Positions 11,888 to 28,299 of a stretch of DNA of 64,000 nucleotides are shown here, piece by piece; position 1 is the stretch's first letter; each line of letters opens with the position of its first letter. A program made the translations under genes and the position numbers. The stretch lies in NCBI RefSeq assembly GCF_001761365.1, contig NZ_CP017477.1, positions 1,324,501 through 1,388,500 of the forward strand, in the 5' to 3' direction. The notes below the pieces were generated by a model. The model made no database searches, had not been told where the DNA came from, and was given only the letters and a program-made list of their open reading frames with translations. Source of the DNA: Polaribacter vadi (GTDB taxonomy: Bacteria > Bacteroidota > Bacteroidia > Flavobacteriales > Flavobacteriaceae).

Positions 11888-13573
11888 TTAAAAACCAACT
11901 GCTGCATCATCTCCTCTTTTATCTGCACCAGCTTCTAATTTTCCATTTGGCAAAACAAGAATAGCATCTACTCTACCAATAATTAAAGAATTTCTTTCTA
12001 AAATTTCATATCCTAAAGATTCCAACTTATTTTTAGAAACTTCATCAAAACCATTGGGTTCCATTCTAATAACATCTGGCAACCATTGATGATGAAACCT
12101 TGGCTGATTCACAGATTCTTGCATTCCCATATCAAATTCTACCACATTTAAAATATTTTGCAAAACCGATGTTATAATTGTAGAACCTCCAGGAGTTCCT
12201 ACCACCATTTTTAACTTGCCATCTTTCTCTACAATTGTTGGTGTCATAGAACTCAACATTCTTTTTTCTGATGCAATTGAATTTGCCTCAGAACCTACTA
12301 AACCATAAACATTTGGCACACCTGGTTTGCTAGAAAAATCATCCATTTCATTATTCAGAATAAAACCTGCGCCTTTTACAACCACTTTAGATCCATAACC
12401 TGTATTTAGAGTTGTGGTTACAGAAACTGCATTTCCAAATTGATCTACAATGGAATAATGTGTGGTTTCATCACTTTCATACCCCAAAATTTTTCCCTGA
12501 GAAACTTCAGAGGAAGGTGTTGCTTTATCCCAAGAAAAAGATTTCATTCTATTGTTTATATAATTTTCGTCTGTTAAACTATCAATTGGCACGTTTACAA
12601 AATCAATATCACCCAAATAATGAGCTCTATCTGCATAACTTCTTCTAGATGCTTCTGTTAACAATTGGATATATTTTGTTGAATTATGTTCAATATCAGA
12701 TAAATCAAAAGGTTCTACCGATTTTAAAATTTGTGCCAAACAAATTCCACCACTTGCAGGCAAAGTCATAGAAGTAATGTTGTAATCTTTGTAAGAAAAT
12801 TCGATTGGTTTTCGCCAAATTGCTTCGTATTTTTCTAAATCTTCGTGAGTAATAATTCCACCTAATTCTGCAACATAATTTACTAATAAATCTGCTGTTT
12901 CTCCTTTGTAAAATCCGTCTTTTCCAAAATCACGAATTCGCTCTAAAGTTTGTGCTAGTTCCTCTTGTTTTAAAATATCTCCTGCTTTCCAATTATTCTC
13001 AAAAACGGTTTTATAGTTGTTAACTTTTTTAAATCTTTCTGTGGCATTATTTAAATCATCTGCTTGATTTTCGGTCACAACAATTCCTTTTCTAGCCAAA
13101 TCAATTGCTGGCTGAATCAAGTCTTTGATTGGTAAAGTTCCGAACTTTTTATGCACTTCAAAAACACCAGCAACAGACCCAGGAATGCCAACTGCAAAAG
13201 CTCCTAACACACTTTTGTTTTCAATTACATTGCCAAGCGAATCTAAATACATGTCTTTATGAGCTGTAATTGGGGCTTTTTCTCTAAAATCTAAAGCGCC
13301 TTTTGTGCCATCGTTATTTCTGTATACCATAAAACCTCCACCAGCAATATTCCCAGCAACAGGATATACAACAGCCAAAGCAAAATGCGTTGCAACCATT
13401 GCATCATAAGCATTTCCACCCTTTTGTAAAATAGCAGAACCAATTTTTGAAGCTTCTTCTCTTGCAGAAACTACCATTGCTTTTTCTGTGATTAAACCAA
13501 CTGTTTTTTCTTTTTTACAACCATTTAAAATTGATAAAAAAGTGATTAGAAAAAGGATTTTATATGCTTTCAT
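11888..13573 (-). CDS. ggt: Gamma-glutamyltransferase (lipoprotein)
   Basis: A 561-aa enzyme that cleaves or transfers the gamma-glutamyl group of glutathione and related peptides. It has a lipoprotein signal (LSILNGC, Cys at 19), so it is probably anchored in the periplasm or outer membrane. As in the family, the precursor should self-cleave at the catalytic threonine, here Thr370 in ETTHYSIVDQFGNAVSVT, giving large and small subunits. The substrate-binding segments GNIAGGGFMVYR (74-85) and the PGGSTIITSV loop near the C-terminus are present. Length fits. It converges with gldG. Confidence 0.95.
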   Translation of the reverse strand: MKAYKILFLITFLSILNGCKKEKTVGLITEKAMVVSAREEASKIGSAILQKGGNAYDAMVATHFALAVVYPVAGNIAGGGFMVYRNNDGTKGALDFREKAPITAHKDMYLDSLGNVIENKSVLGAFAVGIPGSVAGVFEVHKKFGTLPIKDLIQPAIDLARKGIVVTENQADDLNNATERFKKVNNYKTVFENNWKAGDILKQEELAQTLERIRDFGKDGFYKGETADLLVNYVAELGGIITHEDLEKYEAIWRKPIEFSYKDYNITSMTLPASGGICLAQILKSVEPFDLSDIEHNSTKYIQLLTEASRRSYADRAHYLGDIDFVNVPIDSLTDENYINNRMKSFSWDKATPSSEVSQGKILGYESDETTHYSIVDQFGNAVSVTTTLNTGYGSKVVVKGAGFILNNEMDDFSSKPGVPNVYGLVGSEANSIASEKRMLSSMTPTIVEKDGKLKMVVGTPGGSTIITSVLQNILNVVEFDMGMQESVNQPRFHHQWLPDVIRMEPNGFDEVSKNKLESLGYEILERNSLIIGRVDAILVLPNGKLEAGADKRGDDAAVGF

Positions 13574-13642
13574 ATTTTATAATTAGTTTTTTTATGCTAA
13601 TGTAATCTTCAGTAAATAAAATTAAGAGTTACTTAACGAATT

Positions 13643-14236
13643 CTAAATATCAGTTAATTCATTAAATTTCTGCTTTGTAAAAGTGACCAAATCTTGAAAG
13701 AAAATTGTAAAATCTTCTTCTAATTCAGTTTCTAAAAGTGATAAATCTTCGATGGCTAAATTCATTTGAGATTTGCCTTTTGTTCGAGCATTCATGCCAT
13801 TTAAAACTTTTGCAATTCCTTCTTTATATTGATAATTGAACAGAATATTATAGTCGATCATATACTTTATAAATTGTTGCGATTTTTTTGGTAATTCTGA
13901 TGAAATTGAATCAAACAAAGTATATACAGATTTTGTATAAACCTCTAAAGGAATTGAAGAATAAGTTGCCCAATTTTTGGCTAAAAAATAGTCGTAAAAA
14001 ATATCGATGATAACTCCATCATAATGTCTGTAACGTTTATGCAAACGTCGTTTGCTTTTTCTTACAATTTTATGAGCGTCTGTAAAAGTGTCTATTTCTC
14101 TGTGTAAAAAAATTCCTTGCTGAATTTCTTTTGAAAAACCTTCGTAATTATTCCCACGAATATGGTCTGCAATAAAATTGCCAATCATAATATTGGTGTC
14201 GTTTTGTGAGAGATATAAATGTGCTAAGAAATTCAT
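13643..14236 (-). CDS. acpH: Acyl carrier protein phosphodiesterase-like (DUF479)
   Basis: A 197-aa AcpH-family protein. The family removes the phosphopantetheine arm from holo-ACP and is distantly related to HD phosphohydrolases. The start MNFLAHLYLSQNDTNIMIGNF matches the E. coli AcpH N-terminus, and the conserved acidic/His residues are present (IADHIRG, FLHREIDTFTDAH, DIFYDYFLAKNW). The activity is shown only for E. coli, so the enzymatic role here is inference. Confidence 0.85.
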   Translation of the reverse strand: MNFLAHLYLSQNDTNIMIGNFIADHIRGNNYEGFSKEIQQGIFLHREIDTFTDAHKIVRKSKRRLHKRYRHYDGVIIDIFYDYFLAKNWATYSSIPLEVYTKSVYTLFDSISSELPKKSQQFIKYMIDYNILFNYQYKEGIAKVLNGMNARTKGKSQMNLAIEDLSLLETELEEDFTIFFQDLVTFTKQKFNELTDI

Positions 14237-14260
14237 AAATTAAATTGATCTAAAAGTAAT

Positions 14261-14288
14261 CAAAAAACCACAACTAGAAGTTGTGGTT
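14261..14288 (-). terminator. Terminator of the sigma/anti-sigma operon
   Basis: On the minus strand a 9-bp stem AACCACAAC/GTTGTGGTT with a 5-nt loop is followed by TTTTTTG. It lies 111 bp beyond the stop codon of the 14399 gene. Confidence 0.85.
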
Positions 14289-14398
14289 CAAAATTTAATA
14301 TCTCATTTTTAATTTTAGGAAAAAAAGCGGTTATCTTTTTCAGTATTATCCATGTTATTTAAACTCTAAATCGTTTTATAAAATAACTCTTTCTAGTT

Positions 14399-14809
14399 TT
14401 AATAAACTCTTTTATCAAAATGTTTCTTTAAGAATACAATTTGAGCGAAAAATAACAATCCAAAAAATAAAACTGCGTATAAAGTAATATTAGAAACAGA
14501 TAATGTGTCGAATAGATTTGTAAATTGTAATTTATCAAGAAAGTCAAACTCTATTTTTGGCAAATTAAAAGCGCTTTCTGTTGTTGTAAAAAATGAAATA
14601 AAAATTAATGCTAAAATTGATGCAGCAATTAACATCCAACCTTTTTTAGAAATTAGCGATTTTGCTTTAAAAACTTCTAAATTCTTTTCAAGCGTAATTT
14701 TCTGCATTAAAGAAGCTGTAAAATCTAAAGATGGTTGCTCTGTAGAAATCTCTTTTACATACTTTTTTGCAAAAGCATCTAATTCTTTGATATGTTTATT
14801 TTCTCCCAT
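14399..14809 (-). CDS. Putative membrane anti-sigma factor or sigma-linked membrane protein
   Basis: A 136-aa protein with a soluble N-terminal ~55 residues and two membrane segments (about 57-74 and 110-127). It overlaps the 3' end of the ECF sigma gene by 14 nt, which is the standard place for an anti-sigma factor. I do not see the zinc-finger HxxxCxxC motif of ZAS-type anti-sigmas, so assignment rests on context, size and topology. It probably holds the sigma factor at the inner membrane. Confidence 0.65.
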   Translation of the reverse strand: MGENKHIKELDAFAKKYVKEISTEQPSLDFTASLMQKITLEKNLEVFKAKSLISKKGWMLIAASILALIFISFFTTTESAFNLPKIEFDFLDKLQFTNLFDTLSVSNITLYAVLFFGLLFFAQIVFLKKHFDKRVY

Positions 14810-15380
14810 AATTTTCTATCATTTCTGGCACTACATTTTCTTTTACAATGGTCAATAATTTCTTTCTGGCTCTGTGTAACTTCACTTTTAAATTCGCTTC
14901 AGACATGGAGGTTATTTCCGTAATTTCTTTTAAAGATAGTTCATCATAATAAAACATCCAAATAATAGTACGTTCTTCATCTGGTAATTTATGCAAACAA
15001 ATTTCCATCATTTTTGCGCGTTCTTTTCTTTCAATTCCCTCTAAAATATTTTCTGTAGCTTTAATTTGATTAAAAGTAATTTCGTTAATTTCAAACGAAT
15101 TGTTATTATTTTTATTCTTTTTAAGATTGTCCAAACTTGTGTGATATGCAATTCTATACAACCAAGTAGAAAATTTAGAATCACCTTTAAACTTGCTTAA
15201 ATTTTTATACGCTTTTATAAACGTATCTTGACTAATTTCCTCTGCTTCTTCCCTATTCTTAGTCATTTTAAATGCCAAACTAAACACCATATTTTTATAA
15301 GTATCAACAAGAGATGCAAACGCATTTGTATCTCCATTAATAACTTTTGTAATATAAATTTGGTCGGTTTTGTTAGTCAT
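14796..15380 (-). CDS. ECF-family RNA polymerase sigma factor
   Basis: A 194-aa sigma-70 of the extracytoplasmic function group. Region 2 spans residues ~20-85 (FASLVDTYKNMVFSLAFKMT, EEAEEISQDTFIKAYKNL, FSTWLYRIAYHTSLDNLKK). Region 4 spans ~130-182 (LPDEERTIIWMFYYDELSLK, EITSMSEANLKVKLHRARKK). There is no region 3, as expected. It leads a two-gene unit with the 14399 membrane protein. An ECF-type promoter lies immediately upstream, with its -10 ending 6 nt from the ATG, so the mRNA would be nearly or fully leaderless. Confidence 0.95.
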   Translation of the reverse strand: MTNKTDQIYITKVINGDTNAFASLVDTYKNMVFSLAFKMTKNREEAEEISQDTFIKAYKNLSKFKGDSKFSTWLYRIAYHTSLDNLKKNKNNNNSFEINEITFNQIKATENILEGIERKERAKMMEICLHKLPDEERTIIWMFYYDELSLKEITEITSMSEANLKVKLHRARKKLLTIVKENVVPEMIENYGRK

Positions 15381-15386
15381 TTTATG

Positions 15387-15416
15387 TTTGACTGTTATTC
15401 ATATAAATAGGTTACA
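15387..15416 (-). promoter_or_regulatory. ECF-type promoter of the sigma factor gene
   Basis: On the minus strand, -35 TGTAACCT (15416-15409), 16-nt spacer, -10 GTCAAA (15392-15387). The AAC core and GTC core at 16-nt spacing are the classic layout of ECF promoters such as those of RpoE. An identical pair of boxes occurs on the opposite strand at 15528-15557. The expected transcription start falls at or beside the ATG at 15380. Confidence 0.75.
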
Positions 15417-15527
15417 GTTTTTAATTACTTTTTTTTTCTAAAATTTATTATAGAAGTCATAAAGTGAACATTTGTAAAATTAGTGCAATTGTTTTACTTA
15501 TTTTATTTTAAAAAAAATAGCTTTAGT

Positions 15528-15557
15528 TGTAACCTTAACTAAAAATGAATCGTCAAA
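15528..15557 (+). promoter_or_regulatory. ECF-type promoter of the divergent 15585 gene
   Basis: -35 TGTAACCT (15528-15535), 16-nt spacer, -10 GTCAAA (15552-15557). It is identical in both boxes and spacing to the promoter of the sigma gene itself, and lies 27 nt before the ATG. Confidence 0.75.
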
Positions 15558-15584
15558 GCTACAAACACAATAAAATTAATCATT

Positions 15585-15926
15585 ATGGAAGTAGCAATTT
15601 TAGCAGTAATTTTTGGAAGTCTTTTTGGTATCTTTTACTTATATTTTTCAACCAGAAACAAAGAACGTTTAGCATTGATAGAAAAAGGTGCAGATGCAAG
15701 TATTTTTATATCAACCAAAAATCAAAAAACAGCACCAATTTGGAAAGTGCTCATTTTAAATATTTCACTTTTATTAATGGGTATTGGTTTAGGAATTTTT
15801 ATAGGACTTATTTTGGATACTTATACAAATTTAGGTCAACCTGTTTATCCAGCAACCGTATTTTTCACAGCAGGTTTATGTTTATTTGCAGGGTTTCATC
15901 TAACTAAAAGTTTAGATAAAGAATAA
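15585..15926 (+). CDS. Small membrane protein, DUF6249-like, probable ECF target
   Basis: A 113-aa protein with an N-terminal membrane segment (residues 3-20), a short charged loop (FSTRNKERLALIEKGADASIF) and two C-terminal membrane segments (~53-75 and ~85-105). It resembles the DUF6249 family of small membrane proteins. Its function is unknown. It is divergent from the ECF sigma operon and carries a promoter with the same -35/-10 boxes, so it is the clearest candidate target of that sigma factor in the window. An out-of-frame open frame at 15545-15907 overlaps it and is ignored. Confidence 0.8.
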   Translation: MEVAILAVIFGSLFGIFYLYFSTRNKERLALIEKGADASIFISTKNQKTAPIWKVLILNISLLLMGIGLGIFIGLILDTYTNLGQPVYPATVFFTAGLCLFAGFHLTKSLDKE

Positions 15927-15953
15927 AAATAATTTAAAAACTTGTTAATTTTT

Positions 15954-15990
15954 AAAAGAGAATGGATTTCTAAAATCTATTCTCTTTTTT
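15954..15990 (+). terminator. Terminator after the DUF6249-like gene
   Basis: A 13-bp stem (AGAGAATGGATTT pairing with AAATCTATTCTCT, one G-T pair) with a 3-nt loop, followed by T6. It follows the 15926 stop codon by about 30 bp. Confidence 0.88.
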
Positions 15991-16019
15991 CTTTTGTAAA
16001 TTAGCCTTCTAAATAATTT

Positions 16020-17348
16020 ATGATGAAAAAAATTACACTCTTATTTTTACTAGTTTCATCTGTTACATTTGCTCAAACAGATCAAAAAATTTACGATATT
16101 ATTGAGGCTGTTTCTGCTGATAACATAAAAAATTACGTAAAAACTTTAACAGAATTTGGTACAAGAAACACCTTTTCCGATACAATTTCACAAACTCGTG
16201 GAATTGGAGCTGCAAGAAGATGGATAAAATCTGAATTTGATAAAATATCATCAGATTGCGAAAACTGTTTAAATGTATTTTATCAAAAGGATTTGGTAAC
16301 TAAAGAAGGCAACAGAAGAGTGCCTCATGATGCCTATGTTGTGAACGTTGTTGCCATTCAAAAAGGTACAAAATACCCAAATAAATATATTATTATGAGT
16401 GGTGATATAGATTCACGAGCAAGTGATACTATGGATTTTACGACAGATGCTCCAGGTGCAAATGATAATGCATCAGGAATGGCTGGAACTATAGAAGCTG
16501 CTAGAGTTTTATCAAAATACCAGTTTGAAAGTAGCATTATTTATGTAGGTTTATCTGGAGAAGAACAAGGGCTTTTTGGTGGAGCAGGTTTGGCAAAATA
16601 TGCTAAAGAAAAAGAATGGAACATTATCGGAATTTTAAACAACGATATGATTGGAAATATTACTGGAGTTGATGGCGTAATTGATAATAGAGCTTTTAGA
16701 ATTTTCTCTGAACCTGTACCTGCAAACGAAACTGAAAACCAAAGAAATGCGAGACGTTTTTATGGTGGTGAAGTTGATGGTATTTCTAGACAATTGGCAA
16801 GATATATTCATAAAACTACCAAAACTTACATGCCAGAAATGAACCCAATGATGATTTATAGATTGGACAGATTTGGAAGAGGAGGGCATCACAGACCTTT
16901 TAACGATTTAGGTTTTGCAGGAATAAGAATTATGGAAGCACATGAAAATTACACACAACAACATCAAGATATTAGAACTGAAAACGGAATTAATTATGGT
17001 GATACTTTTGAACATGTAAATTTTCCATATGCTAAAAAATTAACTGCTGTAAATGCCATAAATTTAGCCAGTTTAGCTTGGGCTCCAGAAGCTCCAGAAG
17101 TGGTGGAAATTGGTGGAATTGTAGAAGCTAATGCTAAATTAAAATGGAGCAAAGTTAAGGGTGCAAAAGGATATAAAATTTACTGGAGAGATACAACATC
17201 GCCAACTTGGGACCATAGTAGATATGTAGAAGCTACAGAATTTACTTTAGATGGAATTGTAATTGATAATTTCTTTTTTGGAGTTGCTGCTGTTGGTGAA
17301 AATGGACATGAAAGCGTAGTTGTTTTTCCAAACAAAATTTTGAGATAA
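16020..17348 (+). CDS. Secreted M28 family metallopeptidase
   Basis: A 442-aa exported zinc aminopeptidase-like protein. The signal peptide ends near FAQ (residue 19); two adjacent ATGs open the frame. The peptidase core spans ~105-350. Recognisable ligands are Asp131 in SGDIDSR, the bridging Asp149 in GANDNASG, catalytic and ligand glutamates in SGEEQGLFGG (181-182), Asp209 in NNDMIG, and a C-terminal His in RIMEAHENY. The first ligand, normally His in an HxD pair, is Asp129 here. Residues ~360-440 look like a fibronectin type III module (KLKWSKVKGAKGYKIYWRD). It probably trims peptides in the periplasm or outside the cell. Confidence 0.9.
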   Translation: MMKKITLLFLLVSSVTFAQTDQKIYDIIEAVSADNIKNYVKTLTEFGTRNTFSDTISQTRGIGAARRWIKSEFDKISSDCENCLNVFYQKDLVTKEGNRRVPHDAYVVNVVAIQKGTKYPNKYIIMSGDIDSRASDTMDFTTDAPGANDNASGMAGTIEAARVLSKYQFESSIIYVGLSGEEQGLFGGAGLAKYAKEKEWNIIGILNNDMIGNITGVDGVIDNRAFRIFSEPVPANETENQRNARRFYGGEVDGISRQLARYIHKTTKTYMPEMNPMMIYRLDRFGRGGHHRPFNDLGFAGIRIMEAHENYTQQHQDIRTENGINYGDTFEHVNFPYAKKLTAVNAINLASLAWAPEAPEVVEIGGIVEANAKLKWSKVKGAKGYKIYWRDTTSPTWDHSRYVEATEFTLDGIVIDNFFFGVAAVGENGHESVVVFPNKILR

Positions 17349-17451
17349 ATGAAATATTTAAGTTTTATTTTTTCAATTTATTTCTCTTTTTTTCAAATTA
17401 AAAAAATCTTTGAGATCTGAAAAAAATTTTATTATTAGCTTTTCAAAAAAA

Positions 17452-18333
17452 CTAATTTTTCATAAAATCAGTAATCTCTTTGGTAGAAATAAAAGGATTT
17501 GCACCTTCTTTTTGAGCCACTAAAGCACCAACTGCACAAGCTGTATCAATTGCTTTTTGTGGATTTTCTTTTTGCAACAAATTGCTAATTAACGTTGCTA
17601 TAAATGAATCTCCAGAACCAACTGTATCTGCTACTTTTATTTGATAACCACTATTATAAAACATCTTATTATCATATAATAAAACTGCACCATGTTCGCC
17701 TTTGGTTACACAAATTTGGTTTGTATTTGTTTCTTTTGATAAAAAATGAATATTCTGCTCTAAATTTTTATAGGGAGAATTTAAAAAAGCAGCAATCTCA
17801 TAGATTTCTTCATCATTAAATTTAACGAAATTTGCTTTTTGCATCAACTCAAATAAAATATTTTTCTCATAAAAAGGTTTGCGTAAATTCACATCAAAAA
17901 CTTTATAATTTGGGTGTGTTAAAAATTTATACAAGGTGTTTTTTGAAACTTCATCTCGAGTAATTAAACTTCCAAAAACAAAAGCATCAGCATTTTTTAC
18001 AACTGCTGATGCTTTTTCTGTAAACTGAATTTTATCCCAAGCTTTTGGATGCGCAATTTTGTAACTCGCAGCTCCTTTATCATTTAAAGTTACTGCAACT
18101 TCTCCAGTTTCAAAATCATCTAAAACTTGAATTTGTGATGAATTTATGTTGTGTTCTTTTAAATATTCTAAAATAAGTTTTCCTAAACGATCATTACCAA
18201 TAGCACTAATCATAGTAACATCATTTTTAAAAGATTGCAAACGTGTTGCAACATTTAAAGGTGCACCTCCAATCTTTTTATGATTTGAAAAAACATCCCA
18301 AAGAACTTCTCCAAAACAAACAATTTTAGACAT
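17452..18333 (-). CDS. PfkB-family carbohydrate kinase, probable fructokinase
   Basis: A 293-aa ribokinase-fold sugar kinase. The N-terminal GEVLWDVFSNHKKIGGAPLNVA is the PfkB signature 1 region. Near the C-terminus DTVGSGDSFIATLI holds the anion hole and catalytic Asp of signature 2. The GEVLWD opening is typical of fructokinases. It is the last gene of a three-gene unit with the glycosyltransferase (15-nt gap) and the phosphatase-hydrolase fusion. Context suggests it phosphorylates fructose freed by hydrolysis of a fructose-containing disaccharide. Confidence 0.88.
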   Translation of the reverse strand: MSKIVCFGEVLWDVFSNHKKIGGAPLNVATRLQSFKNDVTMISAIGNDRLGKLILEYLKEHNINSSQIQVLDDFETGEVAVTLNDKGAASYKIAHPKAWDKIQFTEKASAVVKNADAFVFGSLITRDEVSKNTLYKFLTHPNYKVFDVNLRKPFYEKNILFELMQKANFVKFNDEEIYEIAAFLNSPYKNLEQNIHFLSKETNTNQICVTKGEHGAVLLYDNKMFYNSGYQIKVADTVGSGDSFIATLISNLLQKENPQKAIDTACAVGALVAQKEGANPFISTKEITDFMKN

Positions 18334-18348
18334 ATTATAGATCGATTT

Positions 18349-19623
18349 TTAGTAGATATTAGTTTCTGATGTTCTCTGATTTATAGAACTCGCAAAAATG
18401 GCTAACATACGTTTTGCAATTCCTGTCCAACCAAAATTTCTACGCGCAAAACGTGCACCTTCAACAGACATTTCGTTTCTTAAATTTGGGTATAAAAGTG
18501 GCATAGCCATCATTGCTCCAAATTCTTTTGGTCTGTGAGGATCTGCAAATAAAGCTTGATTTCCAAAATCTATCAAATCGCACAAACCACCATGAACAGT
18601 TATTACACTTGGCGTTCCACAAGCCATTGCCTCAATAGCTACCATTCCAAAAGGTTCGTATCTAGATGGCATTGCAAAAATACTTGCAGATCTATATACG
18701 TTTGCTAAATCTTCATCTGCAATGTAACTTTTCCATTTTATTTTATCCATTACACCAATTTCTGACGCTACTTGTTTCAGCTTTTCAATTCCTTCTTTAT
18801 CTTGTTTAGAATCGCCACCAATTGCAGCTACTAAACCTGCTTCAGGGCATAATTCGAATAAAGTTGGTAAAGAATTTATTAAAAGATCATATCCTTTATT
18901 ATGCGCCATTCTTCCTAACGCCAATACATCAGTAGGACTTATGTCGTATTTCTGGCGAATTTTATCATTCTCTTTAGATGGTACTGGAAAAAATTTATTT
19001 TCATCTATTCCTGGAGGAATCATGCTACAATTTTTTGTTAAAACATCATATTGTTGCACCAATAAATCTACCTGTGGCAAAGTTGTAGCAATTACATAAT
19101 TACACATTTGGTATACAAAATATTCTTTTCTAATACGTTCTTTAAATCTGTAGGTTTTTTCCATTTCCTTTTCATCCATATCACTTCCCATAGAATGTTG
19201 TTTCCACCAACCTAAAGAATGTGGTGTATGAACATGACAAATACCTAATTCTTCTGATATTTTTTGACCTGCCCAACCTGCGTCCCAATAATGAGAATAC
19301 ACAACATCATACTTCTTATTCTCTTTTTTTATGGCTGCTAACGTGTTTGTAACAAACTTTTTTAAATGATCGTGCATATCCTCTTTTCTGATAAATTTTT
19401 TACCACCAAATGGAATTCTCCAAACACTATAATTTTCATTTACATCATCATATTCTGGTTGATCTTCAAATTGACGAGTCACTAAATCTACTCTTTTTCC
19501 AAGTCTGCTGAATCGTTCTGCTAATTCTAAAACATAAACAACTTGTCCTCCAGTATCTGGTTTTCCTAATTCTGGATTTGCTCCAACATAACCATGTAAA
19601 GAGATCATTAAAATTGATTTCAT
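18349..19623 (-). CDS. GT4 glycosyltransferase of the sucrose-phosphate synthase type
   Basis: A 424-aa GT-B glycosyltransferase. The N-terminal HGYVGANPELGKPDTGGQVV (residues 10-29) is the hallmark of sucrose-phosphate synthase, sucrose synthase and mannosylfructose-phosphate synthase. HVHTPHSLGWWK and MIPPGIDENKF follow. The nucleotide-sugar site EPFGMVAIEAMACGTPSVIT contains the E-x7-E motif. Bacterial sucrose-phosphate synthases of this length lack the plant-type C-terminal phosphatase domain, which here is encoded by the adjacent gene. The donor (UDP-/ADP-glucose or GDP-mannose) cannot be told by eye. Product: sucrose 6-phosphate or mannosylfructose phosphate. Confidence 0.85.
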   Translation of the reverse strand: MKSILMISLHGYVGANPELGKPDTGGQVVYVLELAERFSRLGKRVDLVTRQFEDQPEYDDVNENYSVWRIPFGGKKFIRKEDMHDHLKKFVTNTLAAIKKENKKYDVVYSHYWDAGWAGQKISEELGICHVHTPHSLGWWKQHSMGSDMDEKEMEKTYRFKERIRKEYFVYQMCNYVIATTLPQVDLLVQQYDVLTKNCSMIPPGIDENKFFPVPSKENDKIRQKYDISPTDVLALGRMAHNKGYDLLINSLPTLFELCPEAGLVAAIGGDSKQDKEGIEKLKQVASEIGVMDKIKWKSYIADEDLANVYRSASIFAMPSRYEPFGMVAIEAMACGTPSVITVHGGLCDLIDFGNQALFADPHRPKEFGAMMAMPLLYPNLRNEMSVEGARFARRNFGWTGIAKRMLAIFASSINQRTSETNIY

Positions 19624-19628
19624 AGTTT

Positions 19629-21728
19629 TTATTTTTTAGTATTCATATTTGTTAATTTTAAATCGTGACAGGCTGCTATGTATTGAGCTGCAGACCAAGC
19701 TTGATAAGCCTTACCCATTGGTTTTCCTGTAACTCCATGTGCCCATTCTGTAAATTCCCATTCGTTATTTATTCCTTCTTTATTGATGAGTGCAAGTTTG
19801 TGCAATTCTGCAATAGCAATATCTCTAAAACCTAATTTATTTACATATTTTACCCAAAAACCACCAACAAAAGGCCAAATACCTCCATTATGATAATGGT
19901 TGGGTAAATTCAATAAATTAACGGTATAATAAGGTCTCCAATCTGGATCTCCAGGACTTACAACAGGATATACATTTGCAATAGGAAAAGGATCATTTAC
20001 ACCAACACCTAACATAAATTTAAAAGTTTGATGCGCTTTTTCAGAATCTATTGTTCCATGTAAAAAAGCTAACACATTTCCTAAAGTATCACATCTCCAA
20101 GAAAAATCGAAAGGTGTGGTTTGTGCAATTAAGTATGATGTATCTCCCAAGGTAAATTGCTTTTCAGCAAAAGATACAGATGAAAAAAGTTGTTGTTGTG
20201 TTGATGGCCAAAAATTCTGAACAATTTCTTTTTTTATCACTTGAGACCAACGTATATATTCACCAGCTTCTTCATGATTCCCTAACATTTCTAACAATCT
20301 ACCAAAACAAACGTTAGATCTGTACCAGAGAATTTCATCATAAAGAATATTATAACTTCTTCCAAAAAGATCTGTCCAATCTCCAGCTTCAGGAATTTCT
20401 AAAAGTGCGTCATTATTACTATCATGAGCTCCCAACCAACGCATTGTTTCTTTGATATCGCCAATATATTTTCTTGCAAATTCTATGTCTTTAGTAACAT
20501 TTACGTATTCGTAAAATGCAATAACCACCCAAATTCCACTATCAATTGAACAGATACCTCCAACTCCAGAATAATCTGGTTCATTATCTTTTAAACGAAC
20601 ATTTGATGGGATTTGGCCATTTCTAGAAATATGACCTAACAACGTTTCTAATGTTTGACGTTGACATTTATGAATTTCTTCATCATCTATTAAAGAAAGA
20701 GAACCAATTACTGTAATTGCGCCATCTCTAGCCCAAACTGAATGGTAGTTTTCATCTGTTCCATTAGGAATATTATCTGGTATAGAACAAGCAGAAAAAC
20801 CTAAAGGTGTAATATTTTTACGCAAAGCTTCAATTGCTTTTTTATAGCCTTCTTGAATTAATTCTATTTTTTCACTGTCATCTTCATCAGCAATGTTATC
20901 TAATTCTTTTTTGATGAAAAAATCTTCTGTATGATCGATATTAGAAATTTCTGAGGCTTCTTTTGGTAAGATTCCATAAAATATTAAGCCTTCTATAATA
21001 CCATCTCCTTTTGCTTTTTCTGTATGATAAACTTTTTTATGTTTTGTATATTTATACAATTCTTCGTGTGCATTTGCAACTACAATTCCTGAGACATCTT
21101 TTAAATCGAACATTGCAGAATCGTTTCCACTATCTCCAGCTACTAAAACCTGATTTGTTTCTAAAGTTAATCTTTTTAACAGCCATTGTAAAGCATTTCC
21201 TTTATTCGCCCATTTTGGTAAAACGTCTAAAAATTTATCACCAGAATAAATTACGTTCACATCCATATTTGCATTGGAAAAATCTTGTGCAACGCTTTCT
21301 ACTAATTCATCTGTGGCATCATGAAAAAAGTAACTTCTTTTATAAGAGTGTTGAAATTTACTGGGCTGCTGACTTATTGGGTGATTTATTTTATTAATGA
21401 TATTTTCTACTGCTTTTAAATTCCAGCCATCATCTAAAACATCATTAAATTCTTTTACGACCTTTCCTTCCTCATAATTATAAATATGTGTACCAACTCC
21501 AGAAATTATATAATCTGGTTTTGGTAATACCCCTTTATTGATCAAATTCAAAACATCATCAATTAATCTGCCTGTGTTGTAGGTAATAATAATGTCTAAA
21601 TCTTTAGCGTATTTAACCCAAGTTTTTGTAAAATTACTTTTGTAAGTGTGGAAATCAATTAATGTATTATCTATATCAAAAGACAATAATTTAATTCGAT
21701 TCTCCTTTTTCAAATTCTTATTTTTCAT
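19629..21728 (-). CDS. Fusion of SPP-like HAD phosphatase and GH100/invertase-like glycoside hydrolase
   Basis: A 699-aa two-domain protein. Residues ~12-255 are a HAD-IIB phosphatase like sucrose-6-phosphate phosphatase: DxD nucleophile Asp18/Asp20 in SFDIDNTL, TYNTGR (49-54), Lys176 in ANKGNAL and GDSGND at 198-203. Residues ~290-690 form an (alpha/alpha)6 hydrolase: YHSVWARDGAI (328-338), EAGDWTDLFG (447-456), YHNGGIWPFVGGFW (612-625) and GKPMGKAYQAWSAAQYIAA (668-686). These resemble alkaline/neutral invertases (GH100) more than amylo-glucosidases, though a GH63- or GDE-like role is possible. First gene of the operon, 5 nt before the glycosyltransferase. One protein would thus both finish and undo disaccharide synthesis. 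Confidence 0.8.
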   Translation of the reverse strand: MKNKNLKKENRIKLLSFDIDNTLIDFHTYKSNFTKTWVKYAKDLDIIITYNTGRLIDDVLNLINKGVLPKPDYIISGVGTHIYNYEEGKVVKEFNDVLDDGWNLKAVENIINKINHPISQQPSKFQHSYKRSYFFHDATDELVESVAQDFSNANMDVNVIYSGDKFLDVLPKWANKGNALQWLLKRLTLETNQVLVAGDSGNDSAMFDLKDVSGIVVANAHEELYKYTKHKKVYHTEKAKGDGIIEGLIFYGILPKEASEISNIDHTEDFFIKKELDNIADEDDSEKIELIQEGYKKAIEALRKNITPLGFSACSIPDNIPNGTDENYHSVWARDGAITVIGSLSLIDDEEIHKCQRQTLETLLGHISRNGQIPSNVRLKDNEPDYSGVGGICSIDSGIWVVIAFYEYVNVTKDIEFARKYIGDIKETMRWLGAHDSNNDALLEIPEAGDWTDLFGRSYNILYDEILWYRSNVCFGRLLEMLGNHEEAGEYIRWSQVIKKEIVQNFWPSTQQQLFSSVSFAEKQFTLGDTSYLIAQTTPFDFSWRCDTLGNVLAFLHGTIDSEKAHQTFKFMLGVGVNDPFPIANVYPVVSPGDPDWRPYYTVNLLNLPNHYHNGGIWPFVGGFWVKYVNKLGFRDIAIAELHKLALINKEGINNEWEFTEWAHGVTGKPMGKAYQAWSAAQYIAACHDLKLTNMNTKK

Positions 21729-22014
21729 CTATAATTATTTATTAATTAACACTAATCGCCCTAAAATAGGGAAATAATTAGTTGTAGATGAACGCATTTA
21801 CTATTAATATGTGCTTTAAAATTTACTTTTATGATACTCGTAATTTTTGTATGTTATAAATAATATAATGAGATTTTAAGTACCTATAATTGACATATAT
21901 TAAATTGATGAAAATTTTGAAATGACTTATTTTATGTTAAACATCTATTAAAAAGTTATTTTAATTTCATTAATAAAAGTATTACTATTATATTTATGAA
22001 TAAAACTATTAATC
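21729..22014. other. Divergent intergenic region, no gene seen
   Basis: 286 bp of very AT-rich DNA between the sugar operon (minus) and the 22015 gene (plus). It must hold both promoters. I see a small inverted repeat CCCTAAAATAGGG near 21759-21771, but no clear TAnnTTTG box for either gene. Confidence 0.5.
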
Positions 22015-22629
22015 ATGAAAAAACTACTAATATTATGTTTTGTTCTTGCTATTAATTTAACATTTGCTCAAGAAAATTCAGCCACCTTTTTAACTGTACT
22101 TCATAAAGAAAGTAAAAACGCTCTATTAATTACAAATAATAATGACAAGATGATTGGTTTTCAGGAAATAGTTCCTGTAGATTTCGAAACCAAAAAAATA
22201 ATTGATGAAGCAAAGTTTTCACTTAATGACTTTAATGATAAAAGTTTAAACGCGCTTTTATTAGAATTAGATAAAAAAAATAAAATTGAATTTTTTATTG
22301 TTGAAAAAATCTCAACTGACATCAATAAAACTTCAACTAAAAAAAGCTTTATAATTACAACTAATAAAGATTTTATAGATCAACTAATAACAGCTAAAAT
22401 TGTTCAGGAAGGTTTACTAAATGAAAGTGTTAATTATGGAGATAGAGATATTGAAATTTTTAAAAACTATTCAGAATCGAAGGACATTTTAAATGTAACC
22501 TACAAAATTACATCAAGTACACAATTACAAATTGGTAATAATATAATTCCTTTTATAAAGAAGCCTTTTAAAACTGAAATTGACAAAACATTAGTAAACA
22601 GTTTGAATTTATTGGCAATAAACTTTTAG
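22015..22629 (+). CDS. Secreted protein of unknown function
   Basis: A 204-aa protein with a clean signal peptide (MKKLLILCFVLAINLTFAQ). The mature part is lysine- and asparagine-rich with alternating helix and strand and no cysteine. I recognise no family. It stands alone, ended by a strong terminator at 22659-22707. Low GC and lack of recognisable relatives suggest a narrow taxonomic spread. Confidence 0.7.
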   Translation: MKKLLILCFVLAINLTFAQENSATFLTVLHKESKNALLITNNNDKMIGFQEIVPVDFETKKIIDEAKFSLNDFNDKSLNALLLELDKKNKIEFFIVEKISTDINKTSTKKSFIITTNKDFIDQLITAKIVQEGLLNESVNYGDRDIEIFKNYSESKDILNVTYKITSSTQLQIGNNIIPFIKKPFKTEIDKTLVNSLNLLAINF

Positions 22630-22658
22630 TATTTTATTTTGAATTATAGTACTAATCG

Positions 22659-22707
22659 AAATTGGTTAATTTGTATTAAAACGCTATAAATTAACCAATT
22701 TTATTTT
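22659..22707 (+). terminator. Terminator of the 22015 gene
   Basis: A perfect 14-bp inverted repeat (AAATTGGTTAATTT, 22659-22672, and its complement at 22688-22701) around a 15-nt loop, followed by TTTTATTTTG. Confidence 0.85.
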
Positions 22708-22745
22708 GCCAATAAGTTAAAAGAATAAGAAATATGTATTCATTA

Positions 22746-22778
22746 AAAAGCCATCTAGAATTTATCTAAATGGCTTTT
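22746..22778. terminator. Bidirectional terminator
   Basis: Outer stem AAAAGCCAT/ATGGCTTTT (9 bp) with an inner TAGA/TCTA. A-run and T-run flanks let it work in both directions. It can end transcripts from the partial hmuY copy on the minus strand. Confidence 0.75.
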
Positions 22779-22927
22779 ATCAACAAAAATTCAAAAAATA
22801 AACAAATACTTACGTACTCATAATATGTATCTCCTTTATTATAGTTAATCTAAAATTAAAGCTAAAAAAATTCTTCAATACTTCCTGAAGACAGCATAAA
22901 ATTTTGAAATAATAAGTAAAAGTTCTA

Positions 22928-23187
22928 TTAGTCTAATAAACTGTATACGAATTCTGGATGACCACGCTCACCATCTGCATTTGTAAATGCTAAAAATTTA
23001 AGCTTGTATAAGTTTCCATCTGTATCATTTACAACATAAAACACATTTTCTTTTAAAGATGGTAAAGTACCTGGTCCACCACCATTTCTCCAACTACTAC
23101 CAATACTTCTTTGATCGTTTGTAAAATTAGCAGAAACAACATCTTCTTTCGTAAAAGTATCATAAATACTATTTTCTACATCAGTAC
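22928..23187 (-). pseudogene. 3' fragment duplicate of hmuY
   Basis: The last ~84 codons are a near copy of the C-terminus of the HmuY lipoprotein encoded at 25079-26161: shared blocks include YDTFTKEDVVSANFTNDQR, SSWRNGGG and NVFYVVNDTDGNLYKLKFLA. By hand alignment the DNA is about 92% identical over ~250 bp, and the reading frame is intact with a fresh stop. Upstream the frame runs on to a TTG at 23338, but those ~50 residues have no HmuY similarity and no signal peptide, so the copy is an amputated remnant or a silent cassette. Similarity ends abruptly near 23187. Confidence 0.85.
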
Positions 23188-23339
23188 CTGTTGTGCCTTG
23201 GAATATTAAAAATATAATTAGTATTCCTATCATTTTTTGGAGCTTAAAAACAACAAATGCATTCGAGTTTTTTTTAAAGTTCTTCAACAAACAAAAAGTA
23301 ATTGTATTAACTTTTACAATCTTCCTTCCTCTAGCCAAT

Positions 23340-23640
23340 AATTTAGCTAGTTTTTATGACAACCTACTTTCTTTTCACTTTTTTACGACAGATTTAAAAT
23401 ATTATAATATTTTTATAAGTGAAGAATTAAAAGAAGATTTGCATGAATATATTGAAATTTTTTACCGTTTTAAGAATGGAAAAACCTAATCTAAATAACA
23501 ATGAATGGGCACAATATGACAACAAAGTGTTGTTTTACCCTGAAGAAATAATCATTAGAAAACTAGATAATTACTTGCGTTCTTATGCAGATAACCCTGA
23601 TGAAAAAGTATTGACAAAATTAGTCGTTTATAATCAATAA
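23340..23640 (+). pseudogene. Unrecognised broken coding remnant
   Basis: Two plus-strand frames abut: one ends at 23489 (…FISEELKEDLHEYIEIFYRF), and the +1 frame continues from about 23475 to a stop at 23640 (NNNEWAQYDNKVLFYPEEII…DNPDEKVLTKLVVYNQ). Both segments have protein-like composition, and a single frameshift near 23480 would join them. There is no good start and no family I recognise. A terminator follows directly at 23641. It lies inside the segment bracketed by the hmuY direct repeats, so it is plausibly the 3' remnant of a gene that arrived with, or was cut by, that event. Confidence 0.4.
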
Positions 23641-23674
23641 AAAATCTCTTTAAACTTTTGTCTAAAGAGATTTT
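23641..23674. terminator. Bidirectional terminator
   Basis: A perfect 12-bp stem AAAATCTCTTTA/TAAAGAGATTTT with a 10-nt loop. It lies between the plus-strand remnant and the 3' end of the minus-strand TSP3 gene. Confidence 0.85.
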
Positions 23675-23696
23675 ATGTTAAGTTAAATAAATTTTA

Positions 23697-25052
23697 TCAA
23701 TTATTAATAAGTATTTTCTTTATATCAAGATCAGTCTTTAAAATATAAATTCCGTTTTTTAAGTTTTTCAAAATATCATTCTCTTGATTTTTATTTTTTA
23801 CAATAGTTTCTTTCACTATAATTTTTCCTAAAATACTATATACTGAAATTTTATAAGGTTGAATAAGATTATTTTGTTGTTTATCATATGTTACCTTTGA
23901 ATAAATATTATCCTTCTCAATTGGTGACAGTTTTGAAGAAGAATATGATAATGAAGCAATAAATAAATTGTTATTTTCATTAGACTCATCAATATTATCA
24001 TTCTCATCAACAAAAGCATGTAGGTAATTATAACTACTCAAACTATTACCTAAATAGTTGTCAAAAATAAAAATAGATACAGATATTTCTGTTGTTTCAC
24101 CTGGATCAAGATTTACGTTACTATTAATTGATGATAATCCAGAAACAATACTTGCAGATAATAAATTTGTTCCATTAGACATGATTAGTTCTATATTCTT
24201 TGGAGCTCCAGCACTATCTCCGATATTTTTTACTTCTACAAAAAATTTATGATTCTTATTTTTCTTTAAAGTTAAGAGATTTGGCGTTGAAGTTTTATTG
24301 TTGTCTATTTCTATAGATAAATTTGTAATTATTAAATCTGGTTTTCCGTTAGAAGTATCACATAGATCTCCAATACCATCATTATCAGAATCTAATTGGG
24401 TTGGATTGTAAATGTTTGGACAATTATCACTTGAGTTATTAAATCCATCTCCATCAATATCACTATCACAAGCATCTCCTAGCCCATCTCCATCGACATC
24501 AGATTGATTTGGATTAGAAATGTTTGGACAATTATCATTTATATCCAGAATATTGTCATTATCGTCGTCGTCACAAGCATCACCTATTCCATCATTATCA
24601 GAATCTATTTGATTTGGATTGGCAGTATATGGACAATTATCAACTAAGAAATCAACATCATCTCCATCTGGGTCATAACTAGGACCAGCCCAATTTGAAT
24701 ATGAAACTTCGTTATCAGAAGTTACTTTTCTCCGAAAATAAATACCAATGCTATGAGCGGTTTGAACTTGACCCGCATTTAAAATAACATTTTTACTTGT
24801 ACCTATATATTGATTTACTCCTGTCCCACTCGGAACTACCCAAATTTCCCAACTATAAGTAAAAATTCCATTACCACCAGAAGGTGTACTACCAACCAAT
24901 GTATATATTCCATCAAATGATATAGTATTATTGCTTATTGGTATTATTATTTTTTTTATTTTATTATGAGACTCATCAATAGTTGTATTTTTATTGGCAA
25001 AACCTACACCCGTAAAAATAAAAATCAATAATAAAGTTAGTTTTTTTTTCAT
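23697..25052 (-). CDS. T9SS-secreted protein with thrombospondin type 3 repeats and CARDB-like domain
   Basis: A 451-aa exported protein. Residues 1-19 are a signal peptide; ~35-120 an N-terminal beta domain; ~127-232 three calcium-binding thrombospondin type 3 repeats ([36 protein letters not shown], each with a DNCPN spacer). Residues ~237-370 form a CARDB-like adhesion module ([39 protein letters not shown]), and ~380-451 a type A T9SS sorting tail. It lies 27 bp after hmuY on the same strand and is probably read through from the heme receptor operon. It is bracketed by the hmuY 3' direct repeat, so it may be a recent arrival. Its role in heme use is unproven. Confidence 0.85.
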
Positions 25053-25078
25053 TTTTTTTATATTTAAATTTTAATATA

Positions 25079-26161
25079 TTATTTTAATAAACTGTATACA
25101 AATTCTGGATAACCACGCTCACCATCAGCATTTGTAAGTGCTAAAAATTTAAGCTTATATAAGTTACCATCAGTATCATTTACAACATAAAATACATTTT
25201 CTTTTAAAGATGGTAAAGAACTAGGTCCACCACCATTTCTCCAACTACTTCCAATACCTCTTTGATCGTTTGTAAAATTAGCAGAAACAACATCTTCTTT
25301 CGTAAAAGTATCATAAGTACTATTCTCTTCATCAGTATCAATCATATAAACTTGTGCTGAAGCCTTGGTATTATTTGTTACATAATCTGGATATACATAA
25401 GGCCCTGCAGTTGGAATTAAGTTAGTAAAAATTGTAAAATTTAAATCCCATTCGTTTTTTAAAGGTTCTACATTAACTTCATTTTCGGTGTTAAAACTAA
25501 AAAAAGTAAAATGATATGCATCATTTTTAGAAATAGCAATTTCTATATGTGTAGTAGCATCTAAATCTGCATATTGTAAAATGTAGTTGTCTCCATCTTT
25601 TAGAATTCTTATTTTTTTCCATCCTCTAGCCTCTCCATTTGCAGAATAACTACCTGTCGCAGGCGTTGTAGCACCTACTTCATAACCAAGATTTAATAAA
25701 TATACGCTATTTTCTGAATCAATATCAGAAATTTCAGTAATTGCAGTTTCAAGAATATCTCCATTTGGAGCATCCACAAAAGGAGCACTTTCATCTGTAT
25801 ACGTATTTGTTCTTACTAATGGCTGTAAATCTATTACTTCTTGATCTGAAGATTTAACAGCATCTATATTAGTTGTAGAAAGCTTTGCAGATGCCATAGA
25901 AATTGAGCCATTAATAACAACTCTAAAGTTCGATCCTGAATAGAAACCTAAATCCCAAGAATCTCTTTTCACTGCTGTTGATGTATTTGTGCTTAAATCT
26001 ACATACACTTGGTTGGGTTCATTTGGTCCACCTACTTCTGGTGATACTGATGCTCCATCAATAATAATTACAATAGGATCTGTTGGTGTACTATCGCTGT
26101 CACAACTTGTGAAAGAAAATACTGCTAAACATAAAATAAAAGTTAAAAATTTGTTTGTCAT
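25079..26161 (-). CDS. hmuY: HmuY-family heme-binding lipoprotein
   Basis: A 360-aa outer-membrane lipoprotein with the lipobox FSFTSC (Cys20). HmuY proteins capture heme, often from host or environmental hemoproteins, and pass it to a TonB-dependent receptor. Family features here are VYVDLSTNTSTAVKRDSWDLGFYSGSNF near the start, KNEWDLNFT in the middle and the C-terminal GSSWRNGGG...LYKLKFLALTNADGERG...FVYSLLK. It lies 11 bp after the receptor gene. Its last 84 codons are duplicated at 22928-23187. Confidence 0.9.
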   Translation of the reverse strand: MTNKFLTFILCLAVFSFTSCDSDSTPTDPIVIIIDGASVSPEVGGPNEPNQVYVDLSTNTSTAVKRDSWDLGFYSGSNFRVVINGSISMASAKLSTTNIDAVKSSDQEVIDLQPLVRTNTYTDESAPFVDAPNGDILETAITEISDIDSENSVYLLNLGYEVGATTPATGSYSANGEARGWKKIRILKDGDNYILQYADLDATTHIEIAISKNDAYHFTFFSFNTENEVNVEPLKNEWDLNFTIFTNLIPTAGPYVYPDYVTNNTKASAQVYMIDTDEENSTYDTFTKEDVVSANFTNDQRGIGSSWRNGGGPSSLPSLKENVFYVVNDTDGNLYKLKFLALTNADGERGYPEFVYSLLK

Positions 26162-26172
26162 AATTAAGTAAT

Positions 26173-28299
26173 TTAAAAATTAAGGTTATATAATAGTTTT
26201 AAGTAATAAGATTTGCCATAACCCAATAACAGAGCACTGTTATTGGCAGCATGTGTGCCTTCAGAATTTGTTCCACTAACATTAACATTTGTAACATCAA
26301 ATAAATTTCTAGCACCTAAAGTGGCTTGAATTTTATTTTTAAAAAATGATTTTTTTAGAGAAACATCTAACCAATTATAGGCACTTGTGGTAGATTTAGT
26401 AAAAATGGAATTTCCATCTGCATCAACTCCTGAAGAAACATAATTTTGTTGTTTACCATTATGTTTTAGTAAAACAGTAGCAGCAGTTTGCCATTTAAGT
26501 ATATTGTATGTTGCACTTGTATTTAATTGAAAAGAGTATAAAAAATCGTCTTCTGCTTGTAATTCATTTCCTGCAACTCTAGAAATTCCTTGCAATGTAG
26601 CTCCTAAATTAAAAGTCCAATTTTTCTTTTTTAAGCTATTATTTGACGTAATTCCCCATAATTTATAAGCATCAATATTTATATATTGATATTGTAAAGG
26701 AATTGTTTTTACAATTGCTAAATCTATTTTGTCAGAAACATCTACATAACTCAACTTTAAGCTATTGAGTAAAGAAATGTCATTTATATAACTATATTTT
26801 TTTAAATTGATGAATGCTGTAAAACCATTTTCTGGATTCAAGTTTTCATTTCCTCTCACATCATGATTAGAATCTACAAAATAATAATACAACTCCTCAA
26901 AATTTGGTGTCCTGTATGATGTACCAATATTTCCACGCAATTCAAAACCATGTTTCATTAAATAACGAGCACTTAAAGAGGCTAATATTTTAGATTTAAA
27001 CAAAGAATTGTATTCGTATCTTATTCCTGGTCTTACAATAAATTTTTCTGAAAACTTATATTCTGATGAACCAAAAACTGCAAAATTATTTTGTGATTGT
27101 TCTTTATCTTCTTGCGTAACATCTCCAGAAGCTTCTGTATCAAAACCAGTTATAAAACGAGTTTCGTACCCTAATTGAAAATTAAATGTGTTACTTTTTA
27201 CAAGATTGTTTATATTTCCTTTCGAATAAAAAACTTTACTAGATTGATAAATTTCATCAGTTTCATTGCTTCTTTCTTTACTTAAAATAAAGTGATTAAA
27301 CTCATTTAAATGCCTTTTTTGCTCTTGATAAGAAAGAGAAACATCATAATTTGCTCCTGAATTTAACTTGCCAATAAAATTTAGGTTATTTACAAAACGA
27401 TGTGTCGTAAATATTTTATCTGTAGCAGATGGATTACTAGTTTGAGCATTTACATCGATATTAGCTCTTACAGTAGCATCATAATAATTAATGGATTCGT
27501 TAAAATATTCAAATTTATAAAAAAGTTGAAACTGCTCTTTTTTAAATTGCACAAAAGCGTTTGTATTTAACTGCTCTTTTGGCAACCAATCATAACCTCT
27601 TAAACCATCATTTTTATAATAATTTTCTCCTTGTTTACCATTATAAAAACCCGCAAACTGATTTCGATTTACACCTACTCTTGCAAACCAGTTTTCAGAA
27701 ATCTTATTCGCAACATTTAAAGCTTGTATGTGCCTACCCTTATTAAACCAAGCATACTCATTACTTACAGTTTCTTCTTGTAAAGAAGCTTTAATATTCC
27801 AATTTTCTTTGATGTTTTTTTTCGTAATAATATTAATTACTCCAGATACTGCATTGGCTCCATACTCTACTCCCATTGCTCCTTCTACAATTTCTATACG
27901 TTCTATATCATCTAAATTAATCTGGGTTAAATCGATGTTATTTCCTAATCCACTATCACTTACTAAAGGAATATTATCTACTAAAATATTAAAATATTGA
28001 GCATCTAAGCCAAAAAATGAAATGGTAGATTTTCCTGTTTGAGAACTTGGTATAATTGTTAGGTTCAAATTAAAATTTAACAAGTCTGCCAAATTATTTG
28101 CTGCCTGATTTTCGATCTGCTCTCTTTTAATAACAATTACATTATGAACAGATTTTTTTATAGATCTAGGATTGTATTGTCCTGTAATTACCACTTCATC
28201 TAATGTGGTAATTTTTGTAGAGTCTATTTTTTCCTCTTGACTGAAAGCAACAGTACTTACAAATATGAAAAAGACAAATAATCTTCTATTTAGAAACAT
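26173..28299 (-). CDS. TonB-dependent outer membrane receptor, HmuR-like (heme)
   Basis: A 708-aa outer-membrane beta-barrel receptor. Signal peptide 1-20; a TonB-box-like TLDEVVITGQ at ~33-42; a plug domain up to ~160 (NLADLLNFNLNLTI, IEIVEGAMGVEYGANAVSGVINI); then a 22-strand-type barrel ending LKLLYNLNF with the terminal Phe. It is followed by hmuY, which identifies heme or an iron-porphyrin as the likely ligand. It begins a minus-strand operon (receptor, hmuY, TSP3 protein). Its promoter region faces the DUF6607 operon. Confidence 0.92.
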   Translation of the reverse strand: MFLNRRLFVFFIFVSTVAFSQEEKIDSTKITTLDEVVITGQYNPRSIKKSVHNVIVIKREQIENQAANNLADLLNFNLNLTIIPSSQTGKSTISFFGLDAQYFNILVDNIPLVSDSGLGNNIDLTQINLDDIERIEIVEGAMGVEYGANAVSGVINIITKKNIKENWNIKASLQEETVSNEYAWFNKGRHIQALNVANKISENWFARVGVNRNQFAGFYNGKQGENYYKNDGLRGYDWLPKEQLNTNAFVQFKKEQFQLFYKFEYFNESINYYDATVRANIDVNAQTSNPSATDKIFTTHRFVNNLNFIGKLNSGANYDVSLSYQEQKRHLNEFNHFILSKERSNETDEIYQSSKVFYSKGNINNLVKSNTFNFQLGYETRFITGFDTEASGDVTQEDKEQSQNNFAVFGSSEYKFSEKFIVRPGIRYEYNSLFKSKILASLSARYLMKHGFELRGNIGTSYRTPNFEELYYYFVDSNHDVRGNENLNPENGFTAFINLKKYSYINDISLLNSLKLSYVDVSDKIDLAIVKTIPLQYQYINIDAYKLWGITSNNSLKKKNWTFNLGATLQGISRVAGNELQAEDDFLYSFQLNTSATYNILKWQTAATVLLKHNGKQQNYVSSGVDADGNSIFTKSTTSAYNWLDVSLKKSFFKNKIQATLGARNLFDVTNVNVSGTNSEGTHAANNSALLLGYGKSYYLKLLYNLNF

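Follow-up and report, generated by a model that had tools for sequence, protein, structure and literature searches.

A phosphatase-hydrolase fusion in an operon predicted to make and break a fructose disaccharide in Polaribacter vadi

Can a single polypeptide both complete and destroy a disaccharide and, if so, which disaccharide would it be? The question is raised by a three-gene operon within a 64,000-nucleotide stretch of the Polaribacter vadi genome (contig NZ_CP017477.1, positions 1,324,501 to 1,388,500; hereinafter, the window). In the open reading frame (ORF) listing of the window, three minus-strand ORFs in tandem encode a fusion of a HAD phosphatase of the sucrose-6-phosphate phosphatase (SPP) family with a GH100-like hydrolase, a glycosyltransferase (GT) of the GT4 family, and a PfkB sugar kinase (Table 1). 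We propose that the products of this operon synthesize and recover, in a cycle, a non-reducing disaccharide containing fructose; mannosylfructose, serving as a compatible solute, is the likeliest candidate. To this reading we assign a probability of about one half.

Much of the architecture was described in an earlier note on this DNA, and the ORF coordinates bear out its account of the operon, with gaps of 5 nt between the fusion and the GT (19624-19628) and 15 nt between the GT and the kinase (18334-18348). The SPP-like HAD domain joined to an (alpha/alpha)6 hydrolase likewise stands, given the Pfam matches, the retained SPP catalytic positions, and the motifs D18/D20, GDSGND (198-203), YHNGGIWP (612-619), and QAWSAAQYIAA (676-686).

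Conservation of the fusion and its linkage to the glycosyltransferase

By precomputed Pfam annotation, both halves of the fusion are present in the best 120 of 2281 relatives (7999 scored). The full fusion occurs in 23 of the 299 sampled genomes of the family, the window's own included, and the GT comes after it in all 33 loci from named genomes; an artefact or a one-off is thus ruled out. Altogether, 57 of the 299 family genomes match the fusion query, the matches other than full fusions being to the hydrolase only in 33 genomes (25-39% identity) and to the phosphatase only, inside a 730-aa protein, in one. The PfkB gene was found in 26 of the 33 named-genome loci, among which one is cut by a contig end (L041) and two have a broken frame, in the HAD (L035) or PfkB (L036) gene. 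All 22 further fusion genomes in the family sample likewise have the GT downstream of the fusion, and in 7 of them PfkB is visible at the margin of the short locus; these 22 fusions overlap with the 33 named-genome loci, and several show identical figures. Among 395 genomes of the phylum, the fusion was seen solely in the window's own genome and in G219, and strong S6PP matches in 29 genomes consist of these two fusions, 26 GT-SPP bidomain proteins, and one protein that was left unsorted (G002).

In an alignment of 58 rows, mean identity is 0.88 in the hydrolase half versus 0.73 in the phosphatase half, and the linker is the least conserved stretch (0.55). The catalytic positions of both halves are invariant in the rows that cover them, except for T52 (T in 56 rows, S in 3). 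The hydrolase half, being the more constrained, is therefore no decaying appendage, and degeneration of either half is ruled out by the retention of catalytic positions in both. In some public databases, relatives of the fusion already bear homology-based names, either beta-fructofuranosidase or sucrose-6F-phosphate phosphohydrolase; among the papers listed in searches of the open-licence PubMed Central literature, no title or abstract opening describes the fusion, and calling the one-chain arrangement unusual is fair as far as architecture is concerned. The logic of a make-and-break operon is already known; what is new and unusual is that a phosphatase and a hydrolase of opposing effect share one chain.

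The glycosyltransferase belongs by sequence to the MfpsA clade

The second gene encodes a GT4 domain (Pfam, 6.1e-30) that the earlier note had called sucrose-phosphate synthase (SPS)-type, an assignment that identity, phylogeny, and clade-specific alignment columns correct. Over 410 aa, the GT shares 50% identity with the MfpsA-type protein P0241. This protein, which has no source name of its own, represents a cluster of 392 sequences and is 98% identical to a bait sequence taken to be the Agrobacterium MfpsA. Some sources name the proteins listed with P0241 and close relatives of the GT mannosylfructose-phosphate synthase (MFPS), and others only glycosyltransferase. Identity to the 26 bidomain SPS of Bacteroidota is 25-33%. 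In a 53-row tree, the GT joins the Rhizobiaceae MFPS and a GT from a Paracoccus plasmid, its nearest plasmid relative (58.6% identity), with support of 98/93, and is parted from all 26 bidomain SPS together with HoSPS (100/99); long-branch warnings were raised for the PDB rows of this tree, in which Tll1590, presumably an SPS, groups with MshA. At the 31 columns that are fixed differently in MFPS (7 rows) and SPS (26 rows), the GT has the MFPS residue in 22, the SPS residue in 2, and neither in 7, and its donor motif (316-347) shows a mean identity of 75% to MFPS versus 41% to SPS. The score against the SPS model TIGR02472 is 203.9 bits, below the cut-off of 576. We therefore reject an SPS identity for this protein.

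The donor-site motifs resemble those of MFPS, GDP-mannose being the favoured putative donor and fructose-6-phosphate the putative acceptor. Membership in the MfpsA clade makes mannosylfructose a likelier product than sucrose and, together with these motifs, tells against an otherwise identical cycle with sucrose as the product, in which the GT would use UDP- or ADP-glucose, the HAD domain would be a sucrose-6-phosphate phosphatase, and the hydrolase would be a GH100-type invertase. The sucrose cycle, a possible but doubtful reading in our estimation, draws its own evidence from the two halves of the fusion and from the host genome.

The two halves of the fusion

The HAD half matches Pfam S6PP at residues 13-253 with an E-value of 1.7e-62 (211.7 bits against a cut-off of 20.3) and scores 157.6 bits against the TIGR01485 equivalog model, below its cut-off of 183.65. 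Residues D18, D20, T52, K176, D199, N202, and D203 align with positions of Synechocystis SPP that we take to be catalytic, and this SPP is the best solved-structure match. In a tree with long branches and long-branch warnings, Synechocystis SPP and the Paracoccus HAD form a group with the HAD half to which none of the 26 bidomain SPP belongs. Both the best matches, to S6PP/SPP models and the Synechocystis structure, and this grouping are in line with sucrose-6-phosphate as the substrate. However, the Paracoccus HAD that adjoins an MFPS-like GT likewise scores as S6PP, so that the label does not tell the two products apart, and the HAD half cannot be used to choose between a glucosyl and a mannosyl substrate. 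The fusion and the bidomain SPS-SPP never occur together in the family sample, a pattern that would count towards sucrose but has almost no power because the two are found in 23 and 1 of the 299 genomes.

The second half of the fusion is matched in Pfam by GDE_C (1.6e-14, 54.1 bits; cut-off 21), GH100 (9.9e-14, 51.3 bits, also above the cut-off), and MGH1-like (4.7e-8), and scores far below the cut-offs of the NCBIfam GDE/glucosylglycerate hydrolase models (23 against 364.15 and 20.6 against 550). The comparison with these families, suggested in advance, came out for GH100 when a profile was searched against solved structures: Anabaena alkaline invertase was retrieved at 1.3e-7, along with AtCINV1 and Alr0819, with the C-terminal part covered, and neither a GDE nor a glucosylglycerate hydrolase is among the 31 sequences listed. 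In Pfam, though, GDE_C scores like GH100, and a single-sequence search of solved structures lists 5ohc/5oi1, which we take to be a glucosylglycerate hydrolase, at E=0.62; the hydrolase is accordingly GH100-like yet divergent. The sucrose cycle gains from the fact that, among solved structures, the GH100 invertases are nearest.

E661, the putative base, aligns with the catalytic Glu414 of InvA and is invariant in 60 of 60 rows. D453, the putative general acid and also invariant, lies at the offset expected for InvA Asp188 from a stretch of alignment that is not significant by itself. The arginine located 15 residues past the GH100 catalytic Glu (InvB Arg430) falls, in the alignment used, within a three-residue insertion of InvA and has no counterpart in the window protein. 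By these comparisons, the hydrolase half is nearest to GH100 but divergent, with a matching catalytic Glu, a probably matching Asp, and no GH100 arginine. Its motifs include WARD at 332-335, in addition to YHNGGIWP; all the relatives that were aligned, 13 of them standalone and one fused to a kinase, share an Arg-Asp pair, W-x-D, HNGG, and the Glu with it. A Deinococcus relative matches GH100 best (6e-10), then glucosylceramidase and, weakly, GDE.

Such divergence, and the similar Pfam scores for GDE_C and GH100, would also fit a hydrolase that cuts some other glycoside, imported or stored, its fusion to the phosphatase being incidental. The neighbourhoods of distant standalone relatives are compatible with this: in four loci, the GH100-like gene sits beside PfkB-like genes (20-24% identical to the window PfkB), with TonB and MFS neighbours in one locus that was scanned, and elsewhere it accompanies GT4 and PIG-L genes. 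However, the hydrolase relatives of at least 68% identity that were seen are all within the fusion, beside the same GT, and we regard this alternative as improbable.

Other arrangements of the GH100-like domain were observed in Bacteroidota. Genome G231 encodes a 719-aa protein in which it is fused to a PfkB kinase (L076:8028-10187), an association that speaks for the cycle proposed below. In three genomes, a GH100-like hydrolase, a GT4, and a third gene, of approximately 205-217 aa, form a short operon (L077:7744-10698, L078:8932-11916, L079:5903-8895). Pfam assigns the third gene to PIG-L in L077 and L078, and the operon resembles a thiol-glycoside pathway with its own hydrolase.

The proposed cycle

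From the gene order, domains, catalytic residues, linkage, and clade placement described above, we infer the enzyme activities, the mannosyl donor, and the role of the product as a solute. The MfpsA-type GT would join a hexosyl group (mannosyl from GDP-mannose being favoured) to fructose-6-phosphate, yielding a disaccharide 6-phosphate that the HAD half of the fusion would dephosphorylate; within the same chain, the GH100-like half would hydrolyse the finished disaccharide, and the PfkB kinase would return the fructose to fructose-6-phosphate. The third gene, with its PfkB domain (Pfam, 7.7e-42) and 2qhp, deposited as a fructokinase, as the best solved relative (E=2.6e-53), is a probable fructokinase; none of the 25 NCBIfam models shown is matched above its cut-off. 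The operon content and the catalytic residues thus agree with the compact make-and-break cycle of a fructosyl solute, including a fructokinase-like kinase, that the earlier note envisaged, except that the GT is not an SPS and mannosylfructose is the likelier product.

The opposing activities would have to be regulated because, without control, the cycle would do nothing but consume nucleotide sugar and ATP. A regulated switch or channelled turnover, suggested in the earlier note, would have the fusion itself as its sole basis. More tentatively than the cycle as such, we suggest that the fusion both completes and destroys mannosylfructose, with one half dedicated to its cleavage, so that one chain sets the size of the osmolyte pool in these flavobacteria. 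A different purpose is conceivable for the same chain, namely, that it dephosphorylates and then cleaves a disaccharide phosphate, preventing build-up rather than serving storage. In favour of such a breakdown or overflow device, the presence of both activities in one chain would fix their ratio, and conservation is highest in the hydrolase half; however, the synthase in the same operon would turn it into a futile cycle unless regulated, and PMC6753628 describes the cyanobacterial sucrose pool as one in which synthesis and invertase balance each other. We consider this purpose quite unlikely.

Several observations weigh against mannosylfructose as the product. Loop 296-309 of the GT is just 38% identical to MFPS (0% to SPS), and the GT has MshA-type proteins as its best matches both among NCBIfam models and among solved structures, although P0241, too, has MshA as its best relative among solved structures. 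The GT is closer to the Paracoccus GT than to P0241, to which the Paracoccus GT itself is 48% identical; the window GT therefore belongs to an arm of the MfpsA clade in which we know of no assayed enzyme. Alkaline/neutral invertases are characterized, in the portions of PMC6753628 and PMC6995568 devoted to their specificity, as sucrose-specific glucosidases and not fructosidases, which fits sucrose, and cleavage of mannosylfructose would therefore need an altered -1 subsite. The PfkB gene was not found near 7 of the 33 fusion loci.

In the host genome, one contig with 99.97% completeness, nothing matches the guanylyltransferase part of TIGR01479, and ManC is thus not detectable, whereas this model is matched at E<=1e-20 in 273 of the 299 family genomes (5 of them at 1e-26 to 1e-35 only), including all 22 other fusion carriers. 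The sole ROK gene found in the host genome scores as a polyphosphate-glucose phosphotransferase, and no mannokinase was identified there. Given that neither ManC nor a mannokinase was found, how this host would make GDP-mannose and recover mannose is unproved, and sucrose is a serious rival, the more so as the host has a GlgC, scoring above its model cut-off, that could provide ADP-glucose. ManA is present, and the five host NTP-transferases comprise RmlA, GlgC, a glucose-1-phosphate cytidylyltransferase, and two without assignment, one of which is weakly similar to eukaryotic GMPP; an enzyme other than ManC may supply GDP-mannose in this host. Across the family, ManC is found in 22 of 23 fusion carriers versus 251 of 276 other genomes, with no enrichment. 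Among the 20 non-matching genomes listed (there are 6 further ones), the 19 besides the host's are 1.3-2.5 Mb in size, and a complete genome without ManC is unusual for the family.

Coordinates and surroundings of the operon

Table 1. Features of the operon (window positions)
Feature	Coordinates	Strand	Evidence
699-aa fusion of SPP-family HAD phosphatase and GH100-like (alpha/alpha)6 hydrolase; operon gene 1	19629-21728	-	ORF, Pfam, motifs
HAD phosphatase domain, residues 12-254	20967-21695	-	Pfam, structure-profile alignment, tree
Linker, residues 255-285	20874-20966	-	alignment, 58 rows
GH100-like hydrolase domain, residues 286-690	19659-20873	-	Pfam, solved-structure matches, alignment
GT4 glycosyltransferase, MfpsA clade (mannosylfructose-phosphate synthase-like), 424 aa	18349-19623	-	identity, tree, columns
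PfkB sugar kinase, probable fructokinase, 293 aa	17452-18333	-	Pfam, solved relatives

The region 17300-22100 contains 19 promoter-like sites and one terminator-like site, compared with 25.7 and 1.4 in shuffled sequences, and the Bacteroidota-type promoter pattern occurs three times in the window and not at all in the operon, compared with 6.03 in shuffles; neither search rises above chance. A MoxR-type AAA gene and a VWA gene are found in 28 and 27, respectively, of the 33 named-genome loci (L009-L041), mostly on the same strand and just upstream of the fusion. Neither was seen among the ORFs listed for window positions 12000-28000, and with no link to sugar metabolism, they were not adopted as pathway members. 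Farther along the window, ORF 22928-23338 is, by eye, a near-exact repeat of the C-terminal end of ORF 25079-26161, a partial duplication adjoined by ORF 26173-28299, which is TonB-receptor-like in appearance.

Comparison with known systems

The cyanobacterial SPS/SPP pathway with a GH100 alkaline/neutral invertase follows the same three-step logic as the operon described here; the HAD half aligns with Synechocystis SPP and E661 with InvA Glu414. In cyanobacteria, however, SPP and the invertase are separate proteins, and the window GT falls outside the SPS clade, whereas the window hydrolase lacks, in the alignment, the arginine after the catalytic Glu. The bidomain SPS-SPP of Bacteroidota (approximately 720 aa), present in 26 of the 395 phylum genomes, similarly combines a GT4 with an S6PP phosphatase for a fructose disaccharide, but here the phosphatase is fused to the synthase and no hydrolase is matched. 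According to PMC11046441, the spsA-sppA-frkA-amsA operon of Synechococcus brings together a synthase, a phosphatase, a fructokinase, and a cleaving enzyme, the same make-and-break logic as in the window, with the difference that the cleaving enzyme is an amylosucrase with its own gene.

The plasmid of Paracoccus sp. TOH carries, consecutively, a GH32-like gene (2.2e-5), an S6PP-type HAD gene, and the MFPS-like GT gene (L042:5677-9269); there, an unrelated invertase-type family keeps the same company of HAD and GT, a further point for the proposed cycle. OtsB1 of Mycobacterium tuberculosis also joins a hydrolase-like (alpha/alpha)6 domain, its GH65-like part, to a sugar-phosphatase-like domain. 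This protein belongs to the trehalose family, unlike the window fusion, to which it is likened by description and not by sequence; it has 1327 aa, and the passage on it in PMC11046441 reports no demonstrated trehalose-6-phosphate phosphatase activity and an unknown function.

The operon shares with the mannosylfructose pathway of Agrobacterium a GT of the MfpsA type (50% identity), an SPP-family phosphatase, and a PfkB kinase; it differs in the fusion of the phosphatase to a GH100-like hydrolase, in the Bacteroidota host, and in the lack of a detectable ManC. That pathway, with MfpsA, MfppA, and a fructokinase, was reportedly established in function and operon structure by Torres and Salerno in 2007. 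We know of no breakdown enzyme for mannosylfructose. If our reading is true, the operon would extend mannosylfructose metabolism from Alphaproteobacteria to Bacteroidota, supply the breakdown enzyme, and provide a compact test case for how a futile cycle is avoided when opposing activities reside in one polypeptide.

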